From Actinomycetales bacterium (GTDB lineage: Bacteria; Actinomycetota; Actinomycetes; Actinomycetales; Cellulomonadaceae), in assembly GCA_020444245.1 (NCBI GenBank), contig JAHLLI010000003.1:62001-126000 (forward strand): a DNA stretch of 64,000 bases. The letters are read 5' to 3'. Each line of letters opens with the position of its first letter. Within the stretch, counting starts at the first letter, position 1. The notes below the pieces were generated by a model. It made no database searches and was not told the DNA's origin. It saw only the letters and a list, made by a program, of their open reading frames with translations. Below, piece after piece: positions 29,947 to 51,036 of the stretch. The position numbers and the translations under genes were made by a program.

Positions 29947-31545
29947 TCAGGAACGCGAGGTGACCCCCGCCCGGAGCAGGCCGAAGGTGAGCGAGTCCAC
30001 CAGCGCCTCCCAGGAGGCCTCCACCAGGTTCGGCCCGACGCCGACCGTCATCCAGGTGGTCTCGGCCTGGGTGTCCATCGTCTCGACCAGCACCCGGGTG
30101 GTCGCGTCGGTGCCGTGCTCGGTGTCCAGGATGCGCACCTTGAAGTCGATCAGCTCGAACCGCTCCACCTCGGGGTAGGTCGGGGCCGCGGCCTTGCGCA
30201 GCGCGTGGTCCAGAGCGTTCACCGGGCCGTTGCCCTCGCCCGTGGCGAGCACCCGCTCACCACCCACGTGCATCTTGACCGTGGCTTCGCTCGTGGCCTG
30301 GTTGGGGTCCCCCGGCACCGTCTCGACGAACACCCGCCAGGACTCGGTGGTCCAGAACGACGGCCGTGAACCGTCCAACTCCTCGCGCAGCAGCAGCTCG
30401 AAGGACGCGTCGGCTGCGTCGTAGGTGTAGCCCTGGGCCTCGGCGTCCTTGACCCGGTTGGTCACCCTGGACAGCAGCTCACCGCGACCGGTGAGGTCGA
30501 AGCCGAGCTCGCGCCCCTTCAGCTCGATCGAGGCGCGGCCGGCCATGTCCGAGACCAGCATCCGCATGTCGTTGCCCACCGCCTGCGGGTCCGCGTGCTG
30601 GTACATGTCCGGGTCCACCTTGATCGCGCTGGCGTGCAGACCCGCCTTGTGCGCGAACGCGCTCGCCCCCACGTACGGCTGGCGCGCGAACGGGGCGATG
30701 TTGGTGATCTCACTGATCGCGTGCGCGATCCGGGTCATCTCGCGCAGGCCGTCCCCGGCGAGCAGGGTGCGCCCGTGCTTGAGCTCGAGGTTGGCGACCA
30801 CGGTGAGCAGGTCGGCGTTGCCGGTGCGCTCGCCGTAGCCGTTGACCGTGCCCTGCACGTGCACGGCCCCGGCGCTGACGGCCGCGAGGGTGTTGGCCAC
30901 CGCGCAGCCGCTGTCGTTATGGGCGTGCATGCCCAGCCGGCCGTCGGTGCGGTGGCCCACGGCGGTCACGATCTCGTGCACCCAGTCCGGGATCATCCCG
31001 CCGTTGGTGTCGCACAGCACGACGGTCTCCGCGCCGGCCTCGAAGGCTGCGACCGCGCAGGCCACGGCGTAGTCCTCGTCGTAGCGGAACCCGTCGAAGA
31101 AGTGCTCGGCGTCGAGCACGACCCGCCGGCCCTGGTCCCGCAGGTAGGTGATGGTGTCGGTGATCATCGCGAGGTTCTCCTCGCCGGTGGTGCGAAGCGC
31201 CCGCTCGACGTGCCGGATGTCGCTCTTGGCCACCAGGGTGACGACCGGCGCCTCGCTGTCGACCAGTGCGCGCACCTGGGTGTCGTCCGACGCCTTCGCG
31301 CCCGCCTTGCGGGTCGAGCCGAAGGCCACCAGGTCGGCGTTGACCAGGTCGAGCTCCTTGTCGGCCCGCTTGAAGAACTCGGTGTCCTTGGGGATCGCCC
31401 CGGGCCAACCGCCCTCGATGAAGCCGACCCCGAGCTCGTCCAGCAGCGGGGCGATCATGAGCTTGTCGGCGACCGACAGGTTCATCCCTTCCTGCTGGGC
31501 GCCGTCGCGCAGGGTCGTGTCGTACACGTCGAAGGTGGCGTCCAC
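29947..31545 (-). CDS. cimA: (R)-citramalate synthase
   Basis: 532-aa enzyme of the LeuA/CimA family that condenses pyruvate and acetyl-CoA to citramalate, opening the threonine-independent route to isoleucine. The N-terminus VYDTTLRDGAQQEG, the PGAIPKDTEFF segment, the metal-binding HAHNDSGCAVAN and a full C-terminal LeuA dimer/allosteric domain (about 400-532) mark CimA rather than LeuA. The GTG start at 31545 is fixed by GAGGAG 6 nt upstream. A long leader (31546-31783) carries an attenuator with a Leu-Ile-Ile peptide, implying feedback by isoleucine supply at transcription level. It lies apart from the ilv/leu block on the same strand. Confidence 0.93.
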   Translation of the reverse strand: MDATFDVYDTTLRDGAQQEGMNLSVADKLMIAPLLDELGVGFIEGGWPGAIPKDTEFFKRADKELDLVNADLVAFGSTRKAGAKASDDTQVRALVDSEAPVVTLVAKSDIRHVERALRTTGEENLAMITDTITYLRDQGRRVVLDAEHFFDGFRYDEDYAVACAVAAFEAGAETVVLCDTNGGMIPDWVHEIVTAVGHRTDGRLGMHAHNDSGCAVANTLAAVSAGAVHVQGTVNGYGERTGNADLLTVVANLELKHGRTLLAGDGLREMTRIAHAISEITNIAPFARQPYVGASAFAHKAGLHASAIKVDPDMYQHADPQAVGNDMRMLVSDMAGRASIELKGRELGFDLTGRGELLSRVTNRVKDAEAQGYTYDAADASFELLLREELDGSRPSFWTTESWRVFVETVPGDPNQATSEATVKMHVGGERVLATGEGNGPVNALDHALRKAAAPTYPEVERFELIDFKVRILDTEHGTDATTRVLVETMDTQAETTWMTVGVGPNLVEASWEALVDSLTFGLLRAGVTSRS

Positions 31546-31697
31546 CGGGTCTCCTCGGGGTGTCCGTCGGCGTCGGCGCCGGCGGGGTCGTTCCGGTCGG
31601 GCAGGCGCCGTCCACGGTACGCGGGTGCTTGCCCGGCGGCTGGTCGTGCCGGGCCCTGGACGGCGGGGCCGGGGCGATGGGTGGTGCCTCGGCCAAC

Positions 31698-31728
31698 AAA
31701 AAGACCCCCCGAAGGTCACGGGAGGTCT
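31698..31728 (-). terminator. Attenuator terminator in the cimA leader
   Basis: On the minus strand a 10-base arm, AGACCTCCCG, pairs with CGGGGGGTCT (one G-U-type pair) across a 7-base loop and is followed by TTTTTG, a textbook intrinsic terminator. It lies about 150 nt before the cimA start, immediately after the leader-peptide hairpin, so it would stop transcription before cimA unless antiterminated. Confidence 0.85.
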
Positions 31729-31754
31729 GCGCGTCCGGCTGGTGCCGAACGCGC
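31729..31754 (-). promoter_or_regulatory. Pause/first hairpin of cimA attenuator
   Basis: GCGCGTTCGGC and GCCGGACGCGC form an 11-bp stem (one G-U) with loop ACCA. It starts at the last base of the leader-peptide stop codon and abuts the terminator arm. A ribosome on the stop codon would prevent it from forming, which is the geometry expected of an attenuation sensor. Confidence 0.65.
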
Positions 31755-31783
31755 TACTCGATAATGAGGTGGAACCGAGTCAC
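31754..31783 (-). CDS. cimA leader peptide (9 residues, Leu-Ile-Ile)
   Basis: Short frame encoding fMet-TRFHLIIE, then TAG. The tandem Ile codons preceded by Leu near its end are what an isoleucine/leucine-sensing attenuator needs. It has no Shine-Dalgarno, but a candidate promoter (31790-31818) places the transcription start at the G of the GTG, so it would be translated as a leaderless mRNA. Directly behind are the hairpin and U-tract terminator. The peptide itself is expected to have no function; its translation speed is the signal. Confidence 0.7.
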   Translation of the reverse strand: MTRFHLIIE

Positions 31784-31789
31784 GCGGGC

Positions 31790-31818
31790 ATGATGACACA
31801 CCACGTGCCGGTGGCCAA
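31790..31818 (-). promoter_or_regulatory. Candidate promoter of the cimA leader
   Basis: TTGGCC (31813-31818) and CATCAT (31790-31795) are separated by 17 bases on the minus strand. The -10 lies 6 nt before the leader GTG, so transcription should begin at 31783. Both hexamers match consensus at four of six positions. The rest of 31784-31906 is the divergent control region shared with the sigma gene. Confidence 0.5.
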
Positions 31819-50902: not shown

Positions 50903-50938
50903 AAAAAACCCCTCGGCCCGGGAGGGCACGACGAGGGG
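50903..50938 (-). terminator. Attenuator terminator in the ilvB leader
   Basis: On the minus strand CCCCTCG (50938-50932) pairs with CGAGGGG (50915-50909), with an additional inner GCCC/GGGC pair, followed by six T (50908-50903). It is a classical intrinsic terminator 54 nt before the ilvB start and downstream of the valine-rich leader peptide. Confidence 0.9.
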
Positions 50939-50940
50939 TG

Positions 50941-50971
50941 GGCGCAGGTGGGGGTGTCCCCGGCCTACGCC
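50941..50971 (-). promoter_or_regulatory. Pause/first hairpin of ilvB attenuator
   Basis: Segments GGCG, AGG and GGGG pair in order with CCCC, CCT and CGCC around a small ACA loop. The structure begins at the last codons of the leader peptide and includes its stop. Its G-tract could alternatively pair with the C-tract of the terminator arm, giving the mutually exclusive structures expected of attenuation. Confidence 0.6.
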
Positions 50972-51000
50972 TGGCTGACTACGACGACGAGCTTCCGCAC
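50965..51000 (-). CDS. ilvBNC leader peptide (11 residues, four consecutive Val)
   Basis: Frame [14 protein letters not shown] then TAG, with codons CTC GTC GTC GTA GTC in succession. Val and Leu tRNA charging would control ribosome movement here. There is no Shine-Dalgarno; the promoter at 51008-51036 predicts transcription starting at the GTG, so it is read as a leaderless mRNA. It is directly followed by a hairpin overlapping its stop and by a U-tract terminator. Confidence 0.85.
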
Positions 51001-51007
51001 GCCTCGG

Positions 51008-51036
51008 AGACTACGACAGGACCCGGCGCTTGTCAC
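51008..51036 (-). promoter_or_regulatory. Promoter of the ilvBNC leader
   Basis: GTGACA (51031-51036; five of six to TTGACA) and TAGTCT (51008-51013) with 17 bases between, on the minus strand. The -10 lies 7 nt before the leader GTG at 51000, so transcription is expected to start there. Confidence 0.7.

Follow-up and report, generated by a model that had tools for sequence, protein, structure and literature searches.

The stretch of DNA analysed here (the window, 64,000 nucleotides) carries cimA, the gene for citramalate synthase, at 29947..31545 on the minus strand, where it is recognised by TIGR00977 with 610.8 bits (E 1.6e-183) against a cut-off of 450 bits. Upstream of cimA, on the same strand, lies a compact array of elements that a first-pass annotation of this DNA had read as an attenuator of the gene, and its parts are found where they had been described. 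A frame of nine codons with a GTG start runs from 31783 to 31754 (GTG ACT CGG TTC CAC CTC ATT ATC GAG TAG) and encodes the putative leader peptide MTRFHLIIE, with the HLIIE ending that had been pointed out; its ATT ATC pair (31760..31765), the proposed sensor, occupies codons -3 and -2 relative to the stop codon. The G of the TAG stop codon is the first base of an 11-bp hairpin, P1 (31754-31729), which is followed at a distance of 0 nt by a 10-bp terminator hairpin, T (31728-31702), and by the U-tract TTTTT (31702-31698) and GTTGG. From the end of the T stem to the first base of cimA, at 31545, the distance is 157 nt. The predicted fold of 31690-31790 has an energy of -52.9 kcal/mol (z -4.8), which none of 200 shuffles equals, and terminator-like sites between 29000 and 34000 occur only at the cimA leader, with two overlapping matches against a shuffle mean of 0.6. 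A covariance model of the element finds a single copy in the source genome, with an E-value of 2.0e-21. An Rfam 15 search of the window gives no match at the gathering score, T-boxes and riboswitches included, and in six loci the same search returns just two, which belong to unrelated families and fall short of the gathering score. As a side observation, the leader frame itself (31754-31783) is able to fold as a 7-bp hairpin (ACTCGGT..ATCGAGT), and the identical sequence of the frame recurs in locus L010.

The comparison across Cellulomonadaceae that had been proposed as a check speaks for the element. Within the genus, cimA was found in 18 of 19 genomes (the source included) and the element is present upstream of all 18; the loss of isoleucine codons and terminator in close relatives, named beforehand as the observation that would count against the attenuator, is not seen, as all 18 cimA genes keep both. 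The distance from the terminator GTCTTTT to the aligned start of cimA is 124-204 nt in these 18 sequences. In the family, cimA is present in 147 of 150 genomes, and from a sample of 71 cimA upstream regions out of 25 genera the element is found in 68. In every one of these 68, exactly two hairpins form in the segment that begins with TAG (in three with GAG) and extends to the U-tract, P1 starts at the G, and the gap between P1 and T is 0-1 nt. The three regions without the leader (L055, L056 and L069) have an upstream gene end that, read by eye, is ilvE-like and points in the same direction as cimA. An additional observation concerns the GTTG 3' of the U-tract (window 31697-31693, for example), which is near-invariant in many family leaders and has no evident role.

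For searches beyond the family, an alignment of 51 of the 68 family leaders (A1) served as the basis of the covariance model R1, and a second alignment of 100 leaders (A2) was used for the tests described below; these leaders were chosen manually from the family, order, class and named sets so as to be diverse. R1 matches occur in 139 of 297 genomes of the order sample (E <=0.001) and in 194 of 345 genomes of the class sample (E <=1e-4). Class genomes with cimA have a match in 188 of 273 cases, those without cimA in 6 of 72. Among the matches listed, 98 class matches could be paired with a cimA entry, and 94 of these lie 20-225 nt upstream of it on the same strand. The 103 cimA entries in that pairing came mostly from genomes with an R1 match among those listed, so that the nine without a neighbouring match give no miss rate; the fair figure is the 85 of 273 class genomes that have cimA and no R1 match at E <=1e-4 and stricter filters. 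As a matter of position only, T stands between the leader and a gene of isoleucine synthesis, with these 94 of 98 listed matches directly preceding cimA.

Where the downstream DNA was examined, all 26 class matches precede cimA, and the 72 order matches outside the family precede cimA (54), ilvB (14), leuS (two) or none of these (two); the two leuS genes are partial, with TIGR00396 as their best family. The weak matches L127 and L168, with neither cimA nor ilvB downstream, were taken as chance. Four matches in one genus (f37, g124) precede cimA, and two in f36 did not. The named loci anchored on cimA number 80, and 32 of them have an upstream match; of the 48 that do not, many lie outside the class by their titles. 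The named genera with a match include Cellulomonas, Cellulosimicrobium, Isoptericola, Demequina, Pedococcus, Nocardioides, Motilibacter, Acrocarpospora, Nonomuraea, Planotetraspora, Kutzneria, Amycolatopsis, Pseudonocardia and Lentzea, together with one Acidimicrobiaceae genome and others. R1 also matches 46 of the 246 genomes sampled from the phylum, and 26 loci examined there have ilvB downstream in 20 cases, cimA in two, leuA in one and none of these in three. The element occurs across the class and thus more widely than the family, and by its sequence the same switch appears to be spread across much of Actinobacteria.

The promoter that had been proposed, TTGGCC-17-CATCAT, is present as far as sequence and spacing are concerned, with CATCAT at 31795-31790, 6 nt before the GTG, and TTGGCC at 31813..31818 beyond a 17-nt spacer. 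The two halves fare differently. TTGGCC is doubtful as a -35 element: it is conserved neither in the 18 genus sequences, the source included, nor in 88 of the 100 A2 leaders aligned on the hexamer, in which conservation stays at or below 0.48 bits everywhere 5' of the -10 block and no -35 is found. The -10 hexamer belongs to the strongest conserved block 5' of the start codon in these 88 leaders, a putative extended -10 element that reads TGTGTCATCAT in the window (31790..31800) and has the consensus TGTGGCANNAT, where hexamer positions 2 (A) and 6 (T) are imposed by the selection and the other positions are not. The promoter would therefore be of the extended -10 type. A -10-like hexamer lies 6-7 nt before the in-frame start in 88-89 of 100 leaders, and Shine-Dalgarno-like words precede the start in just 2 of 88. 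Because of this spacing, the extended -10 and the near absence of Shine-Dalgarno-like words, initiation is very probably leaderless, as the first-pass annotation had suspected, and transcription is predicted to start at the G of the GTG (31783). The isoleucine frame has an ATG or GTG with NANNNT 5-8 nt upstream in 91 of 100 A2 leaders, while the same combination of start and -10 is found in 4 of 200 cases in the other two frames. Leader length is variable, 8-22 codons in nearly all cases, with the isoleucine codons staying adjacent to P1.

The family leaders are the best measure of the isoleucine codons, as the 68 were recognised through their hairpin sequence, independent of isoleucine content. 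Among their last five codons, all 67 distinct leaders include at least one for isoleucine and 55 include two or more, chiefly at codon -2 (62 of 67) and codon -3 (58 of 67). Control windows 200-260 nt further upstream hold any isoleucine codon in 10 of 204 cases and two in 0 of 204. In A2, isoleucine stands at codon -2 in 86 and at codon -3 in 79 of 100 leaders, and the fixed frame contains an isoleucine codon in 92, the remaining 8 having it in a frame shifted by one; this count is biased because the A2 leaders were found with a model that includes the isoleucine codons. The choice of codon is a further point: the fixed-frame leader codons are ATT 102 times, ATC 95 times and ATA never, which puts ATT at 52%, as against 56 of 1281 isoleucine codons (4.4%) in the cimA stretches downstream of 82 A2 leaders (Fisher P 1e-60 for ATT versus ATC, leaders versus cimA, a nominal value since the sequences are related). 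The meaning of the codon is kept while its third base is free, and the rare codon is favoured. The enrichment of ATT in leaders possibly reflects selection for slower decoding.

P1 and T covary strongly. In the A2 stems 94.4% of cells pair and 15 of 20 pairs have changed on both sides, with a covariation score of 0.376 against 0.175 for shuffled alignments and at most 0.089 for slid partners. All 100 A2 leaders show exactly two hairpins, P1 and T together, in the minimum-energy fold; P1 opens at the expected G in 99, and the gap between the two is 0 nt in 69, 1 nt in 30 and 2 nt in one. P1 has a mean stability of -20.3 kcal/mol, and its first base pairs, beside the junction with T, are near-invariant.

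The consequences of translation for this structure can be followed in a simple model in which pairing is forbidden under the footprint of a ribosome whose front edge lies at +14, +16 or +18, applied in the fixed frame to all 100 A2 leaders. In naked RNA, with 45 nt of upstream sequence included, P1 and T are predicted to form in 100 of 100, and no displacement of P1 by sequence within those 45 nt is seen in the modelled cimA leaders. A ribosome whose A site is at the stop codon leaves P1 formed in none of the 100 and T in 99-100. With a stall on codon -3, P1 forms in 98, 90 and 59 of 100 for edges +14, +16 and +18, and with a stall on codon -2 in 75, 21 and 2. Under an isoleucine stall, the survival of P1 therefore varies with the footprint edge chosen. 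In every modelled ribosome state T forms in 98-100 of 100 leaders; a first run in which T was missing in 13 of 100 is attributed to one-column shifts of T in A2, and the use of hairpins from each leader's own fold gives the 98-100. Within the model, the position of the ribosome would toggle P1 only and leave T unaffected.

In the trp, his and ilv attenuators of enterobacteria a ribosome stalled at sensor codons decides on termination, and the same is proposed for cimA. Transcription would begin at the GTG, so that the ribosome would load on a bare 5' end. When charged tRNA-Ile is ample, the ribosome would reach the UAG and its footprint would cover the 5' arm of P1; P1 would be kept open, T would form and transcription would stop before cimA. 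When it is scarce, the ribosome would stall on ATT ATC with its front edge at the base of P1 or close to it, P1 would close, T would fail and cimA would be transcribed. Separated from T by only 0-1 nt, the closed P1 would act by sterically hindering the completion of T in the polymerase exit channel, and the near-invariant first P1 pairs at the junction would resist opening. This role falls to P1 because it is the one responsive element and adjoins T. As P1 and T coexist in all 100 folds, T is thermodynamically allowed, and antitermination has to rest on the steric argument. The enterobacterial attenuators work through mutually exclusive 1:2, 2:3 and 3:4 pairings and have a Shine-Dalgarno start, and here lies the difference, as no 2:3 pairing is found in the cimA leaders; with no classical antiterminator visible, the element would be a variant of ribosome-mediated attenuation.

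The coupling of cimA to charged tRNA-Ile that had been suggested is supported at the level of sequence by the conserved frame, isoleucine codons, start position, P1 and T with their abutment, and a ribosome-mediated transcription attenuator is the main reading of the locus, with a probability of about 0.88. When P1 as the regulated element is added to this reading, the combination is still considered likely, and the hindrance of T by abutment has slightly less than an even chance of being correct. The first-pass annotation also had the switch act on the threonine-independent route to isoleucine. The idea of cimA as the sole isoleucine route had to be given up, since PF00585 has no match in the source genome and the TIGR01127 threonine ammonia-lyase matches above its cut-off, so that cimA need not be the only route.

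The strongest competitor of abutment is a true antiterminator with nucleotides in common with T that has escaped detection as a pseudoknot, a triplex or a short overlap. It has precedents. In ilvBNC of Corynebacterium glutamicum, the available text describes an antiterminator hairpin directly before the terminator with a three-base overlap, the contested trinucleotide GCC, supported by the authors' own mutants, and proposes a third hairpin as anti-antiterminator (PMC11857589); for the ilvB-II motif, as far as the accessible text goes, an antiterminator pairing between the P1 loop and T is proposed (PMC10272879). Because of the ilvBNC precedent, an extension of P1 into T was looked for in the cimA leaders. 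No adjacent extension exists in 91 of 100, the flanking runs do not exceed in length those seen when partners are swapped, and an overlap as in C. glutamicum was rejected. Complementarity of the P1 loop, the P1 arms and the leader frame to the T arms is likewise no better than in shuffles in A2, in tests that consider nested pairing only and ignore pseudoknots and triplexes (86 loops of at least 4 nt entered the loop test, the 14 shorter ones being skipped). With the probability of T nearly constant across modelled ribosome positions, a mutually exclusive antiterminator sharing bases with T is not detectable among nested pairings, and a hidden one is judged somewhat unlikely.

A second alternative concerns what is sensed. 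The leader could be a mixed branched-chain sensor that is induced by leucine starvation too, given that codon -4 is leucine in 33 of 100 leaders (CTC in the window) and that some leaders read L-I-L or L-L-I; the positions next to P1, however, hold leucine in 5 (-2) and 7 (-3) of 100 leaders as against isoleucine in 86 and 79, which makes this unlikely. A mixed sensor would also be compatible with the main reading, as a stall at codon -4 would leave the ribosome further from P1 and P1 would still form.

Pause hairpins precede the terminators of classical attenuators, and P1, which is transcribed first and is very stable, could be such a hairpin that synchronises ribosome and polymerase, in which case the ribosome would affect T through coupling and not via P1. 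This fits poorly with sensor codons that keep a near-fixed distance from P1 while the length of the leader varies, with the distance from the isoleucine codons to the U-tract (about 60 nt in the window), and with the 0-1 nt junction to T, which is conserved and would be needless for a pause hairpin; this explanation is accordingly held to be quite improbable. Tandem hairpins can also be plain terminators, and an ordinary terminator that insulates cimA from upstream transcription, with an accidental short frame, might seem to suit the three relatives in which an ilvE-like gene end precedes cimA in the absence of the element, yet it is hardly credible given a conserved -10 and start codon upstream of T, which would make T cut its own transcript, isoleucine codons retained through synonymous change, and a start with a -10 that is seen in the isoleucine frame of 91 of 100 leaders but in just 4 of 200 other frames.

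Among known systems, the ribosome-mediated attenuator proposed for cimA comes closest to ilvBNC and ilvB-II, which, in the accessible texts, are near-leaderless and translation-dependent and have branched-chain codons and a hairpin directly before the terminator (PMC11857589, PMC10272879). It differs from both in its target and its isoleucine codons, and from ilvBNC in that 91 of 100 leaders have no adjacent overlap and that P1 forms in 100 of 100 modelled naked RNAs, where ilvBNC has the GCC overlap and an anti-antiterminator. Nor does it belong to the ilvB-II motif, which lies before ilvB in Corynebacterium and has a P1-loop antiterminator, as the target here is cimA and the loop gives no signal with T. 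Earlier work, as cited in the available text of PMC11857589, reported that replacing three leader valine residues abolished the valine response and that loss of the leader start codon lowered ilvBNC expression by 80%. Abutment, as modelled for cimA, would predict higher expression from an untranslated leader, so that the 80% drop would speak against this prediction unless the third hairpin of ilvBNC explains it.

The leaderless leader peptides of Streptomyces lividans, leuL2 (before leuS), ilvL and trpL1, described with a hairpin and a uridine stretch in the accessible part of PMC8079986, resemble the cimA leaders in being leaderless, short and codon-specific with a hairpin and a U-rich stretch. 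Compared as printed peptides only, LeuL2 (...LLLSEPR) and IlvL (...ILVLGKR) would fit the register of the cimA leader; cimA does not occur in the main text of that paper. Seliverstov et al. (2005, PMC1262725), in the available text, list actinobacterial elements at trp, cys, ilvB, leuS, leuA and ileS with no occurrence of cimA, and describe ilvB leader peptides with terminators whose mode of regulation they call not clear. The same text reports, at second hand, that mutation of candidate codons in the ilvB leader of S. coelicolor had no effect on regulation, which would count against a simple codon sensor at that leader. Leader peptides at trpE, leuA, ilvB and aroF are given for C. glutamicum in the accessible text of a transcriptome paper (PMC3890552). 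In line with the remark in the first-pass annotation that no cimA attenuator is established, neither an attenuator nor a leader peptide of cimA or citramalate synthase was found in the literature searched, mostly non-subscription texts. With the present analysis, citramalate synthase would join the genes that are probably controlled by leader peptides, in a phylum for which the mode of such switches has been called unclear. If abutment holds, a single helix set against a terminator would suffice for attenuation; this could account for the puzzling ilvB and leuS leaders of actinobacteria and would offer a simple switch that can be recoded in strains producing amino acids.

The window itself contains a second leader of the same architecture before ilvB (50905..51013, minus strand; frame 51000-50965), and the view that the two form analogous switches tuned to different amino acids is borne out by their shared register. 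In the ilvB leader, the -10 hexamer TAGTCT is followed after 7 nt by GTG, valine codons extend up to codon -2 and leave one spacer codon, the G of CAG opens P1, and T follows after 1 nt. In the minimum-energy folds of 15 ilvB leaders inspected, P1 and T are 0-1 nt apart in 12 and 2 nt apart in L126. Two leuS leaders (L134 and L138) have leucine codons before P1 and a gap of 1, and at L292 the cassette stands with leucine codons before leuA. At L285 it precedes a partial gene for a threonine ammonia-lyase of the ilvA type, with one isoleucine codon in the leader; L281, which belongs to the same family as L285, is perhaps a second such case. Judged by sequence, the cassette with other sensor codons appears to precede ilvB, leuS and leuA, and probably ilvA. 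This suggests, as a tentative generalisation that may well fail, one recodable cassette of the Actinomycetota, in the order of sensor codons, one spacer codon, P1 from the G of the next codon and T after 0-1 nt, in which the ribosome would toggle P1 alone and P1 would block termination by abutment with no nucleotide shared. A toggle of this kind would allow two or three codon changes to retarget the switch, and the sensor sets would then be isoleucine at cimA (and probably ilvA), valine or leucine at ilvB, and leucine at leuA and leuS.

Three further R1 matches, left unassigned, precede other genes: L301 lies before a prephenate dehydratase gene and may be real or chance, and L307, which may likewise be either, and also L302 lie before genes for 3-isopropylmalate dehydrogenase. 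Three of the ilvB leaders, L116 (one of the 12 above), L117 and L119, differ in that P1 is largely displaced through pairing with the leader frame. In L116 and L117 the frame segment TTCGTTACC can pair with the loop side of P1, GGTAACGA, and the alternative fold formed by the two, which opens P1, is a possible anti-P1.
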